NCBI RefSeq assembly: GCF_012933555.1
Contig: NZ_JABBPK010000001.1
Coordinates: 288,001-352,000 of the forward strand
Source: Niallia alba
GTDB taxonomy: Bacteria > Bacillota > Bacilli > Bacillales > Cytobacillaceae
Length of the DNA: 64,000 bases
Direction: 5' to 3'
Shown here in pieces: positions 1,338 through 60,870 of this stretch. The position numbers and the translations under genes were made by a program. The notes below the pieces were generated by a model. The model was given only the letters and a program-made list of their open reading frames with translations. It was not told where the DNA came from and did not search any database. Within the stretch, counting starts at the first letter, position 1. Each line of letters opens with the position of its first letter.

Positions 1338-2372
1338 ATGGAACATACATCCGTTTTAAAAAATAAGCAGTTAGTAATTCCGAGAAGATTTATTAGCGTA
1401 TTAATACTTTCAATTGTCTTACTCGGTATAAGTATATTGGTGTCTCTTGCTTTTGGGTCTCGTACTGTTGGATGGAACGAAATAATGGATGGTTTATTCC
1501 ATCCTGATGTCCAGTCACACGGAGCAAATGTTGTTCGCCAAAGAATTGCTAGAACTGTTTTTAGTCTTATGTGTGGTGCTGCATTAGGAGTTTCTGGGGC
1601 TCTTATGCAGTCCGTCACACGTAACCCTATTGCAGATCCTAGCATATTAGGAGTAAACACAGGTGCGGCACTATTCGTCGTTTGTGGAATATCCTTTTTT
1701 CATATTGGTACTGCTAGTCAATACATTTGGTTTGCATTAGCAGGAGCAATCTTAACTGCCATTTTTGTATTCGGAATTGGTTCGATGGGGAGTGGCGGTG
1801 CCACCCCCCTTAAACTCGTTTTAGCTGGGGCGGCGACAAGTGCAGCATTATCCTCTCTTGTAATGGCAATTATGATCCCGCGCTCAAATGTGATGGATCA
1901 ATTTAGATTTTGGCAGGTAGGCAGCGTTGGTTCTGGAAATTGGAACTCTATCTCTATTTTTATTCCTTTTCTTATCGTCGGTATTCTAATAGCCTTGTTT
2001 TCCGCTCCAGCCCTAAATGCTTTAGCGTTAGGGGATGAAGTTGCTACAGGATTAGGTGTACGTACTGGTACACTTAGACTTATCGCAGCATTTGGAGGAG
2101 TACTATTATGTGGTGCGGCAACAGCACTAGCAGGCCCAATTGGTTTTATTGGATTACTTGCAACCCATGTGATTCGTCTCATTATTGGTCCTGATTTGCG
2201 CTACATTATTCCGATGTCCGCTGTAGCAGGAGCTATTATATTAACTATTTCAGATGTATGTGGCCGAATCATCGGAAGTCCTGGTGAACTTGAAGTGGGA
2301 GTAGTTACTGCTTTTATTGGTGCTCCTATTTTAATCTTAATAACTATGAAAGCGAAAATGCGTACGTTATGA
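1338..2372 (+). CDS. FecCD-family iron-siderophore permease, subunit 1
   Basis: Integral membrane half of an iron-siderophore ABC importer (BtuC/FecCD family, COG0609), 344 aa with about nine or ten hydrophobic segments. The family motif GALMQSVTRNPIADPSILGVN lies near residue 85, and the conserved G-P-I-G-F-I-G-L coupling region that contacts the ATPase lies near residue 255. The start codon directly follows the stop of the binding-protein gene. The stop overlaps the next start as ATGA, so translation is probably coupled. It would pair with the following permease as a heterodimer. Confidence 0.92.
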   Translation: MEHTSVLKNKQLVIPRRFISVLILSIVLLGISILVSLAFGSRTVGWNEIMDGLFHPDVQSHGANVVRQRIARTVFSLMCGAALGVSGALMQSVTRNPIADPSILGVNTGAALFVVCGISFFHIGTASQYIWFALAGAILTAIFVFGIGSMGSGGATPLKLVLAGAATSAALSSLVMAIMIPRSNVMDQFRFWQVGSVGSGNWNSISIFIPFLIVGILIALFSAPALNALALGDEVATGLGVRTGTLRLIAAFGGVLLCGAATALAGPIGFIGLLATHVIRLIIGPDLRYIIPMSAVAGAIILTISDVCGRIIGSPGELEVGVVTAFIGAPILILITMKAKMRTL

Positions 2373-3400
2373 TGAATGAATCAATGAATCTTATTATGGT
2401 AGGTAGATTAAAAAGACGTCGTCGTTTTATACTTGTGACTTGCCTCCTAGCAATTATTTCTTTTGCGCTATGCTGGACGATGCTTATGTTAGGAAACACT
2501 ATATATCCTGTTTCAGATGTAATCAGTGTTTTACTAGGTGAGCAAGTAAAAGGAGCCTCCTTTGCAGTGGGAACCATCCGTTTTCCAAGAATGGTTGCAG
2601 GTGTTTTTGCTGGCTTTGCATTTGGTATCTCTGGATATGTGTTTCAAACGATGCTTCGTAATCCGTTAGCAAACCCAAATGTTATCGGAATAACAACTGG
2701 TTCAAGTGCTGCTGCTGTATTTTGCATCATTGTGCTTCATGCAAGTAGTACTTTTGTTTCGATTGCCTCTATTATCGGCGGACTAGTCACAGTAATTGTT
2801 ATTTTTCTATTGTCAAAAGGTTCTTCTTTTTCGATTGGTAGATTAATATTAATAGGAATTGGAATACAAGCAATGCTCAATGCGGTAATATCCTATCTAT
2901 TGCTTATCGGCCAACATCATGATGTACCTACAGCCATGAGATGGTTAAGTGGTAGTTTAAATGGAGCTAAAATGGAGAATGTTTATCCACTTATTATTGC
3001 TGTCCTTCTCTTTGCTCCAATTATCATCTTACTTGGCAAGCGATTAGATATGTTAGAACTTGGTGAGCAAACTGCAACTTCCCTTGGAATTCATACAGAT
3101 AGGACAAGGCTAATATTGATAATCAGCTCTGTACTTATTATTGCGCTGGCTACTGCTACAACAGGACCCATTGCATTTGTTGCTTTCCTTTCTGGACCTA
3201 TCGCCAAAAGACTAGTTGGTATTGGTTTTTCTAGTGTTATTCCAGCAGGTCTTGTGGGGATCATTTTAGTTTTAGCATCGGATCTTATTGGCCAGTTTGC
3301 GTTCGTTGCTAGATATCCAGTAGGTGTTATTACTGGTATTCTAGGTGCTCCGTACTTAATTATGCTATTAATTCGAATGAATCGAAGGGAAGAATTGTAA
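2369..3400 (+). CDS. FecCD-family iron-siderophore permease, subunit 2
   Basis: Second membrane subunit of the same importer, 343 aa. It carries the family motif FQTMLRNPLANPNVIGIT near residue 90 and the coupling-helix region GPIAFVAFLSGPIAKRLVG near residue 260. The start overlaps the previous stop (ATGA) and its own stop overlaps the ATPase start (TAATG), the arrangement of a tightly translated transporter operon. Together with the preceding gene it should form the translocation channel in the cytoplasmic membrane. Confidence 0.92.
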   Translation: MMNESMNLIMVGRLKRRRRFILVTCLLAIISFALCWTMLMLGNTIYPVSDVISVLLGEQVKGASFAVGTIRFPRMVAGVFAGFAFGISGYVFQTMLRNPLANPNVIGITTGSSAAAVFCIIVLHASSTFVSIASIIGGLVTVIVIFLLSKGSSFSIGRLILIGIGIQAMLNAVISYLLLIGQHHDVPTAMRWLSGSLNGAKMENVYPLIIAVLLFAPIIILLGKRLDMLELGEQTATSLGIHTDRTRLILIISSVLIIALATATTGPIAFVAFLSGPIAKRLVGIGFSSVIPAGLVGIILVLASDLIGQFAFVARYPVGVITGILGAPYLIMLLIRMNRREEL

Positions 3401-4203
3401 TGGAAAAGATACATGAATTTCGAGCTGAAAAGTTAACATCTGGCTATGAAAATAAAATGATATTACAAGACATTGAGCTTGAAATTCCGAGTAATAAAAT
3501 CAGTGTTATTATTGGAGCAAACGGTTGTGGAAAATCCACTCTCTTAAAAACGCTATCGAATCTTATTAAATCTTCGTCTGGTAACATAACACTGGACGGA
3601 AAATCGATTAGCAAATTTCCACCAAAGCAATTAGCACGGATTCTCGGTATTTTACCTCAATCTCCTATTGTGCCAGAAGGAATAACAGTAGCAGATTTAG
3701 TTGGTCGTGGGCGTTTTCCTCATCAGGCCTTATTTAGTGGTTGGTCCAAGAAAGATTATGAAGCAGTTGCGGAAGCAATGGAAATTATGAAGATAACAGA
3801 ATTTGCTAATCGTGATATCGATGAGCTATCAGGTGGCCAAAGGCAACGTGTTTGGATTGCAATGGCTTTAGCGCAACAAACGGATATTCTATTTCTTGAT
3901 GAGCCGACAACGTTTCTAGATATAACGTATCAAATAGAAATATTAGATTTGCTAACAGACCTTAATCGCAAATATGGTACGACCATTGTGATGGTTCTCC
4001 ATGATATTAACCTGTCCGCCCGTTATGCAGATTATATTTTTGCACTTGAGAAAGGTAAACTTGTTGGAGAAGGAAAACCGGTAGATATTATTACAAGTAC
4101 ATTGGTAAAAGATATTTTTGGTCTTAATTGCACGGTGATTAATGATCCTGTTTCAGGTACTCCTTTAGTTGTGCCTCGAGGAAGATACCATGTTAATGTT
4201 TAG
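3400..4203 (+). CDS. Iron-siderophore ABC transporter ATP-binding protein
   Basis: Cytoplasmic ATPase of the importer, FepC/FhuC type, 267 aa. Walker A is GANGCGKST (residues 39-47), the ABC signature is LSGGQRQR and Walker B is ILFLDEPTTFLD, followed by the switch histidine in VLHDINL. It is the last gene of the Fur-controlled operon and is followed by a hairpin at 4240-4261. Having its own ATPase differs from the B. subtilis systems that share YusV. Confidence 0.95.
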   Translation: MEKIHEFRAEKLTSGYENKMILQDIELEIPSNKISVIIGANGCGKSTLLKTLSNLIKSSSGNITLDGKSISKFPPKQLARILGILPQSPIVPEGITVADLVGRGRFPHQALFSGWSKKDYEAVAEAMEIMKITEFANRDIDELSGGQRQRVWIAMALAQQTDILFLDEPTTFLDITYQIEILDLLTDLNRKYGTTIVMVLHDINLSARYADYIFALEKGKLVGEGKPVDIITSTLVKDIFGLNCTVINDPVSGTPLVVPRGRYHVNV

Positions 4204-4239
4204 TAGAATAAGATTTAGATAGTTAATGGATATAAAGCC

Positions 4240-4261
4240 TGCCTCTATAGAAATAGAGGCA
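4240..4261. terminator. Bidirectional hairpin between convergent genes
   Basis: An 8-bp perfect stem (TGCCTCTA with TAGAGGCA, 6-nt loop) lies between the converging siderophore operon and SCIFF maturase gene. Neither side has a long T-run, so termination is inferred mainly from position. Confidence 0.45.
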
Positions 4262-4274
4262 GAATTAATATGGA

Positions 4275-5684
4275 TTATTCTTCTGTTAATGCATATTCTG
4301 ATTCTTCCATTGCTCGCAGCGTTTCAGCAACTTTCACCATCATGGAACATTCGACTCGTTTACGGAAAATATCGCAACTAAAGTCATGCGTGCCTTGTAA
4401 AGAACCAGTTGCATGTAGTGTGTTTGCAGGGCAGCCTCCACTACAGTAAAGCTTTGCCCAGCACTTTTGACATTCTTCCTTTGAATAACAATTATTTTCT
4501 TTAAACTGACATTGCAGTTCCGGCTTGGTGATGCCAGCCCATACATTGCCCATACTAAATTCTTTATCACCAACAAACTGATGACAAGGAAAGAGTTCTC
4601 CCCATGGAGTGACAGCTAAATACTCGGTTCCAGAACCACAGCCAGATATTCTTTTTTGAATGCAAGGGCCTTCAGAAAGATCCAGCATATAATGGTAAAA
4701 GGTAAAGCTGTTTCCATTTTTTCCGAGGTTTAGCATTTCTTTAGCTAGCACTTCATATTGATGGTAAATTTCCGGAAGGTCTGCTTCTGTTAATGCATAA
4801 GGTTCTGATGAATCACAAATAACTGGTTCCATCGATAGTTTATCAAATCCAAGATCTGCTATATGAAAAATATCATTGGTGAAATCAAGATTGTTATGGG
4901 TATAAGTTCCGCGAATATAGTATTCTTTATCCCCACGTTTTTCAACAAAGCGCTTAAATTTCGGGATGATATAATCATAGCTCCCTTTGTTATTAACCGT
5001 TTTTCGGAGATGATCATGAACTTCTTTTCTTCCATCCAGGCTAAGCACAACATTATCCATTTCCTTATTTAAAAAGTCAGTCACTTCATCATTCAATAAC
5101 ATGCCATTGGTTGTAAAGGTAAAACGGAACTTTTTATGATATTCTGCTTCTTTACTCCTAGCGTAATGGACAATATCTTTTACGACTTTCCATGCCATCA
5201 GTGGTTCTCCGCCGAAGAAATCAATATCAAGATTTCGATGGTGCCCAGAATTCTCTAAAAGAAAATCAATGGCACTTTTTCCAACTTGGTAGCTCATGAG
5301 GGCTCTTTCTCCATTGTATTTCCCTTGGCTCGCGAAACAGTAATCACAGGATAAATTACAAGTGTGGGCAACATTGAGGCAGAGTGCCTTTACGTATGTA
5401 CGTCGCTTTTTTAAATGGATAGATAAATCTCTATATTCATCCTCTGTAAACAGCTGCCCTGTAGTTTTTAAGTGTTCTATATCCTCGATTGTCTCGAAAA
5501 TTGCTTTTTCTGAGATGGTAGGGTCAGCGGTATACTTGTTAAGTAGGCCATCAATAATATCTTTAGTAGATGTCGTCTCATAAAGAGCAATGATTTCATA
5601 GGCAAGATCATCAACAACATGAACCGAACCACTATAAGTATCCATCACAATATTGTATCCATTAAGTTTATACTGATGAATCAT
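4275..5684 (-). CDS. Radical SAM/SPASM maturase of the SCIFF peptide (ranthipeptide thioether synthase)
   Basis: 469 aa enzyme expected to join Cys sulfurs to neighbouring residues of the precursor peptide encoded just upstream. Residues 1-80 resemble the PqqD-like peptide-recognition domain of this maturase family. CNLSCDYCF (Cys109, 113, 116) is the CxxxCxxC site for the SAM-binding [4Fe-4S] cluster, and FFGGEPL is the usual GGE motif. A Cys-rich C-terminal SPASM region includes GCGSG, PCHQF, CQKCWAKLYCSGGCP and SCDIF, for auxiliary clusters. Start chosen at 5684 behind AAGGAGC. The pairing with a six-Cys peptide makes this assignment firm (family recalled as the SCIFF maturase, TIGR03974). 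A radical-SAM enzyme of this kind works without oxygen. Confidence 0.92.
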   Translation of the reverse strand: MIHQYKLNGYNIVMDTYSGSVHVVDDLAYEIIALYETTSTKDIIDGLLNKYTADPTISEKAIFETIEDIEHLKTTGQLFTEDEYRDLSIHLKKRRTYVKALCLNVAHTCNLSCDYCFASQGKYNGERALMSYQVGKSAIDFLLENSGHHRNLDIDFFGGEPLMAWKVVKDIVHYARSKEAEYHKKFRFTFTTNGMLLNDEVTDFLNKEMDNVVLSLDGRKEVHDHLRKTVNNKGSYDYIIPKFKRFVEKRGDKEYYIRGTYTHNNLDFTNDIFHIADLGFDKLSMEPVICDSSEPYALTEADLPEIYHQYEVLAKEMLNLGKNGNSFTFYHYMLDLSEGPCIQKRISGCGSGTEYLAVTPWGELFPCHQFVGDKEFSMGNVWAGITKPELQCQFKENNCYSKEECQKCWAKLYCSGGCPANTLHATGSLQGTHDFSCDIFRKRVECSMMVKVAETLRAMEESEYALTEE

Positions 5685-5753
5685 TTGAAAATAAGCTCCT
5701 TTTGCTTATGTAGTTAGTTTAATTTTCACGGTGATATTCGGATTTCAACCAAT

Positions 5754-5772
5754 GGGGAATGAGATATTCCCC
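5754..5772 (-). promoter_or_regulatory. Small intercistronic hairpin between SCIFF precursor and maturase
   Basis: GGGGAAT and ATTCCCC form a perfect 7-bp stem with a 5-nt loop in the 125-nt gap between precursor stop and maturase start. No T-run follows. By position it could stabilise the precursor message or reduce maturase expression; both are inference. Confidence 0.35.
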
Positions 5773-5809
5773 GTTGAATAAAGGTAGTTCTTGGTAGACA
5801 ATGGGCAGT

Positions 5810-5959
5810 CTATCGGTTCCAAGGGTTCTCGCATTTTTGATTAGCAATTCCACAAGAAGTTTTGCAAGCTGATTGGCAGGAAGTTTGGCATTCCCCACAG
5901 CCACCATATTTTACGGTATCATTAAGTTTACGAGTGCTTAATGTAATAATTCTCTTCAT
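5810..5959 (-). CDS. SCIFF-type ranthipeptide precursor, six cysteines in 49 residues
   Basis: Small gene: ATG at 5959-5957 behind AAGGTG (7-nt spacing), TAG at 5812-5810, 49 aa. The N-terminal half is a leader beginning MKRIITLSTRKLNDTVKYGG. The core carries cysteines at 21, 24, 28, 32, 36 and 43 in the pattern C-G-E-C-Q-T-S-C-Q-S-A-C-K-T-S-C, followed by IANQKCEN. This is the hallmark of SCIFF peptides (recalled as TIGR03973), substrates of the radical SAM maturase encoded 125 nt downstream. The mature product should carry Cys thioether bridges. Known mainly from Clostridia. A longer open frame on the same strand at 5719-5907 is out of frame and lacks these features. Confidence 0.93.
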   Translation of the reverse strand: MKRIITLSTRKLNDTVKYGGCGECQTSCQSACKTSCGIANQKCENPWNR

Positions 5960-5981
5960 TTATTTGCACCTTCTTTCTAAC

Positions 5982-6023: not shown

Positions 6024-6093
6024 ACTTTTACATCCTGTATTTTAACAAGACCTGATTAGGTCGTCAAATCATGAGAAGCTCAGCTATTGTCGA

Positions 6094-6235
6094 TTTATCC
6101 CACTCTTAACGGACAGCAAGATTCCCTCCTCAAGCTTATGAGTATACGAGGAAGATAGGTGGGAGATCAACTATCCGTAAAGGTCAGATTGTCAGCTAAC
6201 CATCAGTGGGGAGGAAGGAAAACCCCTCTAATGGA
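6094..6235 (+). repeat. bcr1-like dispersed element, copy 1 (diverged 3' end)
   Basis: Starts with TTTATCCCACTCTTAACGG and contains the paired arms TTAACGGACAG and TGTCCGTAA-like (here changed to ATCCGTAA), then the AACCATCAGTGGGG arm. Its 3' hairpin and the terminal TTTCACTTTAT are degraded, so this looks like the oldest full-size copy in the window. It sits between the divergent SCIFF operon and the membrane-protein gene at 6330. Confidence 0.8.
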
Positions 6236-7937: not shown

Positions 7938-8080
7938 TTTATCCCACTCTTAACGGACAGTAATACTCCTCTCTCAAGGAAGAAAGGTAGGAGCTCAACT
8001 GTCCGTAAAGGTCCGATTGGTTCAACTAACTATCAGTGGGGGAGGAGGGAAAACCACCACTGATGGAAGTTTCACTTTAT
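7938..8080 (+). repeat. bcr1-like dispersed element, copy 2
   Basis: 143 bp bounded by TTTAT at both ends (7938-7942 and 8076-8080). It has the arms TTAACGGACAGTAA and CTGTCCGTAAAG, the small stem TGGTTCAACTAACCA, and the arms CATCAGTGGGGG and CCACTGATGG, then AAGTTTCACTTTAT. The segment between the first arms is shorter than in copies 1, 3 and 4. It lies just upstream of aadK. Confidence 0.88.
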
Positions 8081-19853: not shown

Positions 19854-20012
19854 TTTATCCCACTCTTAACAGGCAGTAAGACTCTCCCCTCAAGCTTATG
19901 AGTATACGAGGAAGATAGGTGGGAGATCAACTGTCCGTAAAGGTCCGATTGGTTCAACTAACCATCAGTGGGGGAGGAAGGAAAATCCCCACTGATGGAA
20001 GTTTCACTTTAT
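19854..20012 (+). repeat. bcr1-like dispersed element, copy 3
   Basis: 159 bp with TTTAT at both ends (19854-19858, 20008-20012). The arms are TTAACAGGCAGTAA and CTGTCCGTAAAG (some mismatch), the middle stem TTGGTTCAACTAACCA, and the 3' arms CATCAGTGGGG and CCCCACTGATGG. It lies between the divergent ECF sigma gene and the flavoprotein gene. Confidence 0.9.
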
Positions 20013-28175: not shown

Positions 28176-29260
<1,085 letters not shown>

Positions 29261-50351: not shown

Positions 50352-50506
50352 TTTATCCCACTCTTAACGGCCAGTAAGACTCCCCTCAAGCTTATGAGTA
50401 TGCGAGGAAGAGAAGTGGGAGATCAACTGTCCGTAAAGGTCCGATTGGTTCAACTAACCATCAGTGGGGGAGGAAGGAACCCCCACTGAAGGAAGTTTCA
50501 CTTTAT
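50352..50506 (+). repeat. bcr1-like dispersed element, copy 4
   Basis: 155 bp with TTTAT at both ends (50352-50356, 50502-50506). Arms TTAACGGCCAGTAA and CTGTCCGTAAAG, middle stem TTGGTTCAACTAACCA, 3' arms CATCAGTGGGGG and CCCCCACTGAAGG. The rest of the 407-bp gap between sirC and the kinase gene is AT-rich with no other feature seen. Confidence 0.9.
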
Positions 50507-57407: not shown

Positions 57408-60400
57408 TTATTTCAATCCAATGTATACAATTTCGCCGTCTATTTGAATTTCTTTCATTTCTGCTATTCTTTCAAAGAGGAGCTTATGAAGAATAACGCC
57501 TTTATGAATGAGGGAATGATATTCCATCATTGTATTTTTGAAAATGGATGAACTGTCGATATATAAATCAATTTTTTTATCGACAGGCAGATTTTTCTCT
57601 TTGCGCAAATCTTGGATAGACCGAATCAGTTCTCGGATGTTCCCTTCCTTTTTTAATGCTACTGATACGGTAGTATCAAGCATTACGGTAAAGTTCTTAT
57701 TAGAGGCCTCATGATATCCAGGTAAATTTGTTTTTCTTTGAAGGAGTATTTCCTCTCCTGCTAGGGTAACACTTTCTTTACTTTCTAGCTGAAAAGTTAA
57801 ATATCCTTTATTTCTGAAGAAATTTATCTCTTCTTGTGTAGCGGTTTGTACTCTCTCTTTAAGTTGCTTTGTATTACTTCCTAGTTTTGGTCCTGTCTTT
57901 TGAAAATTGAGCTTTAAGGAATATTGAACATAATTATCTTGAGAATCTATCCAGTTAATGCTTTTTACATTAAGTTCATCTTTTATAATTGGCTCAAATT
58001 TAATAAGCTCGATATCTGGCGAATTCGTTGCTGAGAAAATCAGTAGTGTTGCTAAAGGTTGCTTTGTTTTTAGTTGAAACCGGTGACGGAGACTTCGCCC
58101 TAGTTCAACTATCTCTTTAACCTGTTCCATTTGTTCTTCTAATTGTTTATTCATTCTTTCTGAATTCTTTGAAGGAAAGTTAGTCAGATGGACGCTTTTC
58201 CCTGTTAAGGCAAGATAAATGCTTTCAGAAGTGAAAGGAGTAAAAGGAGCAAGCAATTGTGATAACTGAGTTAATACAGTATATAGTGTTTGAAAGGCAG
58301 AAATTTTATCCTCAGACATTCCGGCTATCCAAAACCGTTCGCGATTTCTACGAATATACCAGTTGCTTACATCGTCCATTAACTCACCAAGTTTCCGAGC
58401 TGCATTAGTCACTTGATATTGTTCCATCTCTGATTGCACGACCATTGTCGTCGTTGCTAAGCGAGAGAGAATCCAGTGATCCATATTAGGCATATTTTTA
58501 ACTTTAGGTAAATCTGTCTCAAAACCATCTATCTCAGCGTATAAGGAGTAGAAATGAAATAAACTTAAAAATGTATCAATGATTTTTGATTTTGCCTCTT
58601 GGACATTTTTTGCTGAGAATCTTTTTTGGTTCCATGGAGCGCTATCTGCGATAAGCGCCCATCGTAGTGCATCTGCACCATATGTTTGGATAAGCTGGAC
58701 AGGGTCTAGCGCATTGCCCTTACTTTTAGACATTTTTTGCCCATCCTCATCTAATACATGCCCTGTAGCCACAACATTCTTATATGGTACTTTACCAGTA
58801 TAGAGGACAGATACAGCCAATAGCGAATAAAACCATCCTCTTGTTTGGTCAATTCCTTCTACAATAACATCTGCAGGAAACTGCCGTTGAAATACTTCAT
58901 TATTTTCAAATGGAGTATGATATTGGGCAAATGGCATGGAGCCACTATCAAACCATACGTCGATTACTTCAGGTGTTCGATACATCTCTCCACTGCAAGA
59001 TGGACATGTTAAGACAAGTTCATCTACGTAAGGTTTATGCAATTCTAACTGGTCAAATGGGGCCTTAGTATATTTTTTTACTTGTGCAATACTTTTTGGA
59101 GCAATCTCCTTTTGACAGGAAGTACATTGCCAAACATTTAGTGGTGTTCCCCAATATCGGTTTCGACTTATATTCCAATCGACTAAACCATCAAGAAATT
59201 TTCCGAAACGACCATCCTTTATATGCTCAGGATGCCAAGTTACTTCTTGATTTCTAGTGATAAGCATTTCTTTTACGGCAGTAGTTTTAATAAACCAGCT
59301 TTCTGTCGCGTAATACAAAAGAGCTGTGTCACAGCGCCAGCAATGTGGATAGGAATGTTCATACTTTTCTTTATGGAATAACAACCCCTTTTGGTGAAGC
59401 ATTTTGATTATCTCCACATCCACTTTCCCGTCTTTTACAAAGGCGCCAGCTAGAGGAGGAATACATTCTTTGTATCTTCCCCTTTCATCGACTACGTGTA
59501 CAAAAGAAAGATTGTTTTCTTGCACAAGTCGATAGTCATCCTCTCCATAAGCAGGAGCAATATGGACAATTCCTGTTCCGCTTTCACTTGTGACGAAATC
59601 GCCATGATGAATGGTATGACCTTTCACAACTTGAATATAGGAAAATGGTGCTGAATAGGAGAGACCAACTAAGGCTGATCCCTTTAATTGTTCGATTACT
59701 TCCCCTTCTGTGCCAATAACCTGCTGCAATCTATTTTGAGCAACAATGAATATTTCTTCCCCTACTTTTACTTTTACATAATCTAAGTCTTTATGAACTG
59801 CTAAGGCCACGTTCGCTGGTAGCGTCCAAGGTGTCGTTGTCCAACCTAGTATATATTCATTTGCTTTTGTAGTTAATTTAAATTTAACGGTTGCACTTAA
59901 ATCTTTTACATCTTTATAGCCTTGTGCCACTTCATGTGAGCTTAAGGAGGTTTGGCAGCTAGGGCAGTATGGAGAGACGCGGTGTCCTTTATACAGCCAG
60001 CCCTTTTCATGAATAGTTCCAAGGATATTCCAAACCGATTCCATATATTCATTACTCATGGTCATATATGGTTCATCCATATCAACCCAATATCCTAATT
60101 CTTTCGTAAAGGTTCTCCATTGCTTTTCATAAGAGAATACACTTTCTTTGCACTGTTCAATAAATGGAATAACCCCGTATTTTTCGATTTCTTGTTTTCC
60201 AGAAATACCGAGTTTTTTTTCTACCCCTAATTCAACAGGGAGTCCGTGGGTATCCCAACCGGCTTTGCGAATTACTTGTTTTCCGTTCATTGTTTGAAAG
60301 CGGGCAATAATATCTTTGATAGTTCTGCCTAGTGCATGGCCGACGTGTGGAAGGCCATTAGCTGTTGGCGGTCCTTCGTAAAATACAAAAGAATCATTGT

Positions 60401-60500
60401 TTTTGCGCTGTTCGATTGATTTTTGAAAAATTCGTTCTTTTTCCCAAAAGGCGAGTATTCTTTTTTCACGGGCTCTGTCTGTTTCTTTTGGTTTTTCCAT
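57408..60500 (-). CDS. ileS: Isoleucyl-tRNA synthetase, type 2 (eukaryotic-like)
   Basis: 1030 aa, behind GGAGGG. Charges tRNA-Ile. The class I signatures are PHVGH (residues 51-55) and KMSKSKGN; the editing domain lies between, with zinc-type pairs CPSCQTS, CWRCD, CTSCQKE and CPSCSGE. It is about 110 residues longer than the usual Bacillus IleS and has a long C-terminal domain without the final zinc finger, which places it with type-2 enzymes such as MupA and those of eukaryotes. Type-2 enzymes resist mupirocin. Many Bacillaceae carry it beside a type-1 ileS. Controlled by a T-box. Confidence 0.92.
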   Translation of the reverse strand: MEKPKETDRAREKRILAFWEKERIFQKSIEQRKNNDSFVFYEGPPTANGLPHVGHALGRTIKDIIARFQTMNGKQVIRKAGWDTHGLPVELGVEKKLGISGKQEIEKYGVIPFIEQCKESVFSYEKQWRTFTKELGYWVDMDEPYMTMSNEYMESVWNILGTIHEKGWLYKGHRVSPYCPSCQTSLSSHEVAQGYKDVKDLSATVKFKLTTKANEYILGWTTTPWTLPANVALAVHKDLDYVKVKVGEEIFIVAQNRLQQVIGTEGEVIEQLKGSALVGLSYSAPFSYIQVVKGHTIHHGDFVTSESGTGIVHIAPAYGEDDYRLVQENNLSFVHVVDERGRYKECIPPLAGAFVKDGKVDVEIIKMLHQKGLLFHKEKYEHSYPHCWRCDTALLYYATESWFIKTTAVKEMLITRNQEVTWHPEHIKDGRFGKFLDGLVDWNISRNRYWGTPLNVWQCTSCQKEIAPKSIAQVKKYTKAPFDQLELHKPYVDELVLTCPSCSGEMYRTPEVIDVWFDSGSMPFAQYHTPFENNEVFQRQFPADVIVEGIDQTRGWFYSLLAVSVLYTGKVPYKNVVATGHVLDEDGQKMSKSKGNALDPVQLIQTYGADALRWALIADSAPWNQKRFSAKNVQEAKSKIIDTFLSLFHFYSLYAEIDGFETDLPKVKNMPNMDHWILSRLATTTMVVQSEMEQYQVTNAARKLGELMDDVSNWYIRRNRERFWIAGMSEDKISAFQTLYTVLTQLSQLLAPFTPFTSESIYLALTGKSVHLTNFPSKNSERMNKQLEEQMEQVKEIVELGRSLRHRFQLKTKQPLATLLIFSATNSPDIELIKFEPIIKDELNVKSINWIDSQDNYVQYSLKLNFQKTGPKLGSNTKQLKERVQTATQEEINFFRNKGYLTFQLESKESVTLAGEEILLQRKTNLPGYHEASNKNFTVMLDTTVSVALKKEGNIRELIRSIQDLRKEKNLPVDKKIDLYIDSSSIFKNTMMEYHSLIHKGVILHKLLFERIAEMKEIQIDGEIVYIGLK

Positions 60501-60559: not shown

Positions 60560-60870
60560 AAAAAACACCCGTCCCTTTGTAGGGACGAGTGTATTATTCA
60601 TAACCCGCGTTACCACCCAAATTCTGTTTGGCAAAAAAGCAAACAGCGCTTAGTCAACGTACTATCATACGTGTTCCTTTTAACGGTGGAAATCCGTCAA
60701 GACTTACTAACGGTTCAGCCTTGCATCTCAGAGATGATTTTTCCGGTTTGCTTTCCTTACTGGCTTTCACCATACCCAGCTCGCTAAAAGGGACACAAAA
60801 CGTACTTTTTCTCTTCATTGATTTCTATGAATTGGAATGTTTTGTATAGGATAGCACTTTTAAATGGGAA
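60560..60870 (-). ncRNA. T-box leader of ileS (Ile specifier)
   Basis: On the minus strand TGGGTGGTAACGCG (60619-60606) is the T-box core, followed by the terminator with CACTCGTCCCT and AGGGACGGGTG and a T-run (60592-60560). In stem I, ATC (60738-60736), followed by ATCTCTGAG, is the likely isoleucine specifier. Uncharged tRNA-Ile would allow read-through. Confidence 0.93.

Follow-up and report, generated by a model that had tools for sequence, protein, structure and literature searches.

SCIFF systems, in which a precursor peptide (ScfA) is encoded beside a radical SAM/SPASM maturase (ScfB), are among the most widespread peptide-modification systems of Clostridia; their product and role are unsettled and the position of the bond is disputed. 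The closest described examples are CteA/CteB (thermocellin) and Tte1186a/Tte1186. According to the accessible parts of two reviews (PMC8326336, PMC8172795), CteA carries a Cys32-Thr37 bond in vitro and a Cys32-Thr34 bond (through Cgamma) upon co-expression, a discrepancy said there to need clarifying, and the former (PMC8326336) gives Thr37 as the in vitro acceptor for both Tte1186a and CteA. The same two reviews, in those parts, extend the term SCIFF to freyrasin (PapA/PapB) of Paenibacillus polymyxa, another ranthipeptide whose maturing enzyme is of the radical SAM/SPASM type, with six Cys-Asp bridges.

Here we describe a locus sharing with the clostridial systems the peptide and maturase families, the six-cysteine spacing, Cys32, Thr34 and the gene order from peptide to maturase. 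It differs from them in its Bacillaceae host, in having Gly37 where CteA and Tte1186a have Thr37, in lacking an upstream gene of the Orn/Lys/Arg-decarboxylase type and in lacking the terminator-like intergenic hairpin present in 60 of 98 Clostridia gaps. The locus lies in the window, by which we mean the whole 64,000-nucleotide stretch analysed (bases 288001-352000 of a 5.23-Mb contig). Its features are as follows.

4238-4263, minus strand: terminator-like hairpin with T-rich tail directly 3' of scfB (one found, 1.3 expected in shuffles, hence weak)
4275-5684, minus strand: scfB, radical SAM/SPASM SCIFF maturase, 469 aa, intact, matching TIGR03974
5685-5809, minus strand: scfA-scfB gap of 125 nt, with a hairpin without T run at about 5744-5782
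5810-5959, minus strand: scfA, SCIFF precursor peptide gene of 49 codons, matching TIGR03973 and PF13165; leader MKRIITLSTRKLNDTVKYGG, core beginning at Cys21
5967-5978, minus strand: ribosome-binding site AGAAAGAAGGTG of scfA, predicted from sequence, ending 7 nt 5' of the ATG
6039-6067, minus strand: promoter-like site TTGACG-17-TAAAAT with extended -10, about 80 nt upstream of the SCIFF start
6094-6235, plus strand: copy of an interspersed repeat, one of four in the window, ending where congener synteny resumes

The open reading frame at 5810-5959 translates into MKRIITLSTRKLNDTVKYGGCGECQTSCQSACKTSCGIANQKCENPWNR. It scores 81.5 bits (E 3e-23, cut-off 50) against TIGR03973 and 82.2 bits (cut-off 27) against Pfam PF13165, far above chance level, and none of 14 control genomes yielded a TIGR03973 match; a chance reading frame is ruled out by these scores. 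The cysteines, at positions 21, 24, 28, 32, 36 and 43 in the C-terminal part, have the spacing of the SCIFF family, and residues 34 and 37 are Thr and Gly. In the accessible part of PMC5300114 a SCIFF precursor is recognised by a maturase gene at most 500 bp away; scfB starts 125 nt downstream of scfA. The first-pass annotation, which had proposed a six-cysteine SCIFF precursor with a good ribosome site followed by its matching maturase, was thus right on each point.

ScfB matches TIGR03974 over its full length with 730.3 bits (cut-off 425) and stays below the cut-offs of rival models: NF040492 (534/855), PapB (279/340) and the quinohemoprotein-type TIGR03906 (263/453). Its closest sequence in PDB is 5wgg (531 bits, residues 1-454; table title 'Radical SAM domain protein'), which we take to be CteB. 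Aligning 58 maturases gives twelve columns in which every ungapped row shows cysteine (one row is gapped at position 414, one at 418 and two at 437). The window ScfB has all twelve: the CxxxCxxC motif 109/113/116 together with 102, and in the SPASM part C341, 349, 367, 405, 408, 414, 418 and 437. The catalytic cysteines are intact, and the predicted cluster ligands are among them. Both genes are full-length relative to their models and preceded by good ribosome sites. The freyrasin type does not fit (the core contains neither Asp nor a Cys-X3-Asp repeat, and the PapB model falls short). The pair is an additional member of the known SCIFF family.

With a probability of roughly 85%, we favour the following explanation as a whole: a complete SCIFF system, with a Cys32-Thr34 ring, obtained by an old transfer and making a regulatory or housekeeping peptide. 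By analogy with CteA/CteB, ScfB would bind the N-terminal leader of ScfA, and its radical SAM and SPASM clusters would join the Cys32 sulfur to a non-alpha carbon of Thr34, closing a small thioether ring. The pair would act as a free-standing two-gene unit that most likely reached Bacilli from a Gly37 subgroup of Clostridia, then spread and was frequently lost; in the window species it occupies a variable gap between conserved genes.

Distribution of the pair agrees with what the first-pass annotation had stated, namely that it is near-universal in Clostridia but atypical for Bacillaceae. Among sampled Clostridia, whose genome completeness was not stated, 245 of 291 contain a SCIFF peptide over cut-off, versus 16 of 193 genomes (8 of 25 genera) in the window's family. 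The maturase passes its cut-off in the identical 16 genomes, so that no maturase-bearing relative there lacks the small reading frame. For Bacilli as sampled the figure is 13 of 398 over cut-off (19 at E 0.001), and in the window's genus peptide or maturase was found in one of 13 genomes only, the window's own. Among the best 80 of 564 relatives, carriers with names include Mesobacillus zeae, Neobacillus rhizosphaerae, N. massiliamazoniensis, Robertmurraya korlensis, Paenibacillus alvei and others, Brevibacillus laterosporus, Anaerobacillus, Trichococcus and Sporolactobacillus; the pair is scattered, among these 80, over Bacillaceae, Paenibacillaceae, Sporolactobacillaceae and Trichococcus. 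Mesobacillus, Neobacillus and Robertmurraya belong to the window's family, as identical maturases indicate. SCIFF carriage in Bacilli is evidently wide but thin. Many Bacilli carriers are easier to grow than strict anaerobes, and carriers with close relatives devoid of the pair provide a clean setting for deletion tests.

Mobile carriers were also considered and set aside. One plasmid record matched, a 2.6-Mb replicon of Acetoanaerobium noterae with 50% identity; 13 unannotated gut contigs matched in the phage search, each below 60% identity and perhaps bacterial DNA. A contig labelled Sedimentibacter sp. SX930 (L072) bears a SCIFF locus nearly identical to that of Trichococcus alkaliphilus, with the same gap sequence, and is therefore mislabelled, contaminated or the result of a very recent transfer.

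Next, we asked where the window maturase belongs. In a tree of 61 maturases (8 duplicates of identical maturases omitted; 16 of the 43 Clostridia loci used), 45 Bacilli rows are split from 16 Clostridia rows at 100/100. The window falls into the Bacilli branch, together with Mesobacillus, Neobacillus, Robertmurraya, Paenibacillus, Brevibacillus laterosporus and Trichococcus, whose maturases are up to 82% identical to its own (best 80 of 564 relatives) and whose peptide cores are near-identical; it differs from them in Glu23 (Ala23 in 48 of 60 main-branch Bacilli loci) and in its own chromosomal site. Its nearest fork, with L016, is weak (92/63). The window copy is thus no recent gift from a clostridium, which sharpens the earlier alternative of transfer or overlooked distribution, both of which hold.

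A wider tree of 58 rows, for which 27 of 79 further loci yielded no maturase and, of the others, 13 of the 19 Bacilli rows and alternate Clostridia rows were kept, places the main Bacilli branch (21 rows) beside nine Clostridia rows with Gly37 peptides, drawn from the loci nearest the window. The maturase filter had missed all seven Gly37 peptides of the Clostridia class sample; an extended tree adds them and drops four long rows (L214, L228, L170 and L153), while L207 (Ala37) gave no maturase and L099 no peptide on its short contig. There, the 37 Gly37 rows, of which 21 are Bacilli and 16 Clostridia, unite in a single clade (100/100), with one change at residue 37 on the whole tree. The main Bacilli branch keeps its 21 rows (100/99), and the tree singles out no Clostridia rows as their nearest kin. 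The position of the main Bacilli branch inside the Gly37 clade fits an old transfer with later spread and loss. As the roots are midpoints, transfer from Clostridia to Bacilli is the likelier direction rather than a proven one.

Maturases of those Bacilli whose peptides have lost Cys36 are placed away from the main Bacilli branch, and a single clade for all 32 Bacilli rows of the 58-row tree is rejected (p-AU 5e-5), so that Bacilli hold at least two SCIFF lineages. A single clade is not rejected for Paenibacillaceae (p 0.348) and is marginally rejected for the window's family (p 0.041); these values suggest, but do not prove, transfer between Bacilli families. The 'orphan' ScfB-like group NF040492 of NCBI was tried as a home of the Cys36-less maturases and dismissed: the eight tested all matched TIGR03974 best and over its cut-off (469-597 bits). 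Peptides of two Cys36-less families fall below the 50-bit line of NCBI (39-47 bits, four tested).

A separate observation concerns the Bacilli locus L139, where a six-cysteine SCIFF peptide (1465-1632, plus strand) lies just upstream of a maturase (1661-3058, plus strand) whose best model is NF040492, below cut-off (784.5/855), with TIGR03974 also passed (635.5). Relatives of the 'orphan' group may therefore have a precursor.

Which bond ScfB would form can be approached through natural variants. Peptide cores were read at 174 loci (143 distinct peptides, some organisms occurring twice), comprising 60 main-branch Bacilli loci including the window, 11 Cys36-less Bacilli loci, L139 and 102 Clostridia loci. 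The last consist of 42 named loci nearest the window, the 30 top-scoring matches of the class sample and 30 from its weakest, the middle being unsampled. Cys24, Cys28, Cys32 and Cys43 are unchanged in all 174. Losses of Cys21 and Cys36 occur in Bacilli only: Cys21 is replaced by His at 10 of the 60 main-branch loci, nine of them named Sporolactobacillus (L082-L084, L087, L088, L090-L093) and the tenth L148, whose gap equals that of S. terrae, while Cys36 gives way to Ala (6), Ile (2), Leu, Met or Val at 11 loci of four other Bacilli families (L140, L141, L149-L155, L170, L171). Residue 34 is Thr at 173 loci and Ser at one (L151). Residue 37 is Gly at 109, Thr at 64 and Ala at one; Gly37 is found at 60/60 main-branch Bacilli and 49/102 Clostridia loci, Thr37 at 52/102 Clostridia and 11/11 Cys36-less Bacilli loci.

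Gly37 makes a side-chain bond at residue 37 impossible in the window peptide, leaving Cys32-Thr34 as the better candidate of the two published ones. The one acceptor shared by every peptide read is a hydroxyl residue at 34. Natural variants therefore favour the Cys32-Thr34 bond, short of proof. Conservation is silent on the bonded carbon, and Thr34 could be kept for recognition. Moreover, Gly37 arose once on the tree and represents one natural experiment, not many, and Thr37 is present at 52 of 102 Clostridia loci and accompanies all 11 Cys36-less loci as well as the Ser34 peptide, which runs counter to the Thr34 reading.

The Thr37 counts in Clostridia and in the Cys36-less loci would suit a different chemistry, in which bridges start from several cysteines or from all six, as they do in freyrasin, or else Cys32 pairs with residue 37. 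We consider it a distinctly less probable outcome, at odds well short of even: it can point to six cysteines invariant in 102/102 Clostridia loci and to the reported in vitro acceptor of Tte1186a and CteA (accessible part of PMC8326336), but in the window only an alpha bond could form at Gly37, the Cys-X3-Asp motif is missing, and both Cys21 and Cys36 are replaced in Bacilli, the latter next to maturases that pass their cut-off in all eight tested. Returning to the Cys32-Thr34 bond, we give about even odds to a more general proposal drawn from these alignments, namely that the essential unit would be SCQSACK[T/S]S with one thioether from Cys32 to residue 34, and not the six cysteines. Two five-cysteine SCIFF types in Bacilli (His21, and Ala, Ile, Leu, Met or Val at 36) speak for dispensability of Cys21 and Cys36, and the whole Gly37 branch, window included, for that of Thr37. 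If true, it would settle the published conflict in favour of Thr34; in any case, natural Cys and Thr changes name the peptides able to decide SCIFF chemistry. Five-cysteine SCIFF variants were not named in titles or opening lines of abstracts among the open-literature papers listed, which is not a claim of absence from print, and a search of the open literature for ranthipeptide and Sporolactobacillus found no paper.

In two Clostridia genomes we noticed double SCIFF genes, reading frames of 88-89 aa (L220, 1495-1764, plus strand; L222, 1366-1632, plus strand) with two complete cores, each with its own leader-like stretch (R/H-I-x-T-L-x-T-R-N-L).

The first-pass annotation had not described the promoter-like site, the missing intergenic terminator and the repeat abutting the locus. 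The promoter-like site agrees with the consensus at 10 of 12 positions, and 17 such sites occur in the region versus 9.4 in shuffles; promoter-like and terminator-like matches being frequent in shuffles, both are weak evidence. For the intergenic gap we scanned for a stem of at least 6 pairs with at least 4 G-C pairs, a loop of 3-10 and then at least 5 T in 7, taking 110-130 nt past the peptide stop for gaps that were short or had no clear end. Such a hairpin occurs in 46 of the 49 non-redundant Bacilli gaps besides the window (L139 counted, Cys36-less loci apart), in 4 of 11 Cys36-less loci and in 3-5% of shuffled gaps, and two of the three missed Bacilli gaps show a CCGCCC...GGGCGG hairpin by eye. 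Because the hairpins were picked by pattern, their pair counts are not proof of covariation. The hairpin probably lets the precursor outnumber the enzyme. The same scan found none in the window gap, which also differs from other Bacilli in lacking the CCGCCC...GGGCGG type; its own hairpin has no T run and a fold z of -0.9.

The gene to the right of the locus was found in five of 12 congeners, and all five regions were compared. In each, sequence alike to the window's runs in kept order up to about position 4198 and again from about 6230 on; their gaps of 3.1-5.3 kb hold nothing that matches the window in between. Content of the gap was read in three congeners, with Pfam run on three proteins: TrkH, a CPBP-type protease and other genes in L164, a protein resembling the L164 TrkH by eye in L167, an MFS transporter and others in L168. 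As flanks are conserved and gap content differs, the scfAB locus represents a lineage-specific replacement or insertion. The segment particular to the window ends at 6235 with the repeat copy. This repeat, of 130-146 bp, has copies at 6094-6235, 7938-8067, 19854-19999 and 50352-50493 and a partial one at 28185-28250, 77-90% alike to the queries; it gave no plasmid match and no Rfam match at gathering scores.

Sole carriage among 13 congeners, together with the missing terminator, leaves room for altered regulation or early decay. That the locus is already a decaying relic of transfer is nevertheless very unlikely in our estimate: its sole carriage, the repeat abutting it and the absent hairpin would fit such a remnant, but both reading frames are intact and full-length, with all invariant cysteines and good ribosome sites.

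Genomic neighbourhoods were clustered for 38 Bacilli loci, window included, and 43 Clostridia loci with flanks. ScfB was recovered in 38 Bacilli and 33 Clostridia loci. Besides it, one gene family (3 loci) is common to three Bacilli genera and about eight to two genera, not counting the pairing of Trichococcus with the SX930 locus; apart from ScfB, the window locus has no neighbour family in common with the others. The Orn/Lys/Arg-decarboxylase-type gene occurs at 32 of the 43 Clostridia loci, at five Trichococcus loci and at the 'Sedimentibacter SX930' locus. In 36 of these 38 it sits 103-290 nt upstream of the core, in the other two 1.9 kb away. A dedicated exporter, protease, receptor or immunity gene common to the neighbourhoods was not found in the 38 Bacilli and 43 Clostridia loci.

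A near-frozen core and the lack of common neighbouring transport or immunity genes render an antibiotic unlikely. We regard a conserved peptide with a regulatory or housekeeping role as the likeliest product, though confidence in any finer role is low. When the pair was disrupted in C. beijerinckii, sporulation genes went down and agr went up (Chen et al. 2020, as given in the accessible part of PMC8102284). This phenotype would suit a secreted quorum signal cut at Gly19-Gly20 by a C39-peptidase exporter, the more so because Gly19-Gly20 is conserved at 60/60 main-branch Bacilli loci, including those without Cys21. Such a signal appears unlikely, however, given that Gly19 is not kept at 30 of 102 Clostridia loci and that the window's genome shows no C39 peptidase at E 0.001. 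Among the 16 carriers of its family a strong C39 match is present in G111 only (that of G161 is under cut-off), as compared with 14 of 177 non-carriers. C39 being rare among carriers, a double-glycine exporter is not a general partner, and its absence from the window's genome, together with the lack of a common exporter, protease or receptor in the neighbourhoods, argues mildly against a secreted signal of the double-glycine type.

The near-frozen core and missing exporter could also mean that the cross-linked product is retained inside the cell, where it would act like a cofactor or as a metal- or redox-active peptide tied to low-oxygen growth, a tentative idea to which we assign a minor share of the probability. 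The anaerobic ribonucleotide reductase NrdD is present in 9 of 16 carriers versus 30 of 177 non-carriers (Fisher p 0.0009, kinship ignored), a weak link to anaerobic lifestyle at best; seven of the 16 carriers lack NrdD, all 12 congeners have it without SCIFF, and no partner enzyme is known. In several genomes of the family (G027, G004, G028, G138 and G078), nrdD was seen in pieces, suggestive of an intron, intein or frameshift.

Elsewhere in the window, 57408-60500 on the minus strand encodes a 1030-aa isoleucyl-tRNA synthetase preceded by a T-box leader (60578-60827, minus strand). This enzyme shares some 52-55% identity with its best plasmid-borne IleRS matches, which include MupA, and is presumably an IleRS of the second type.
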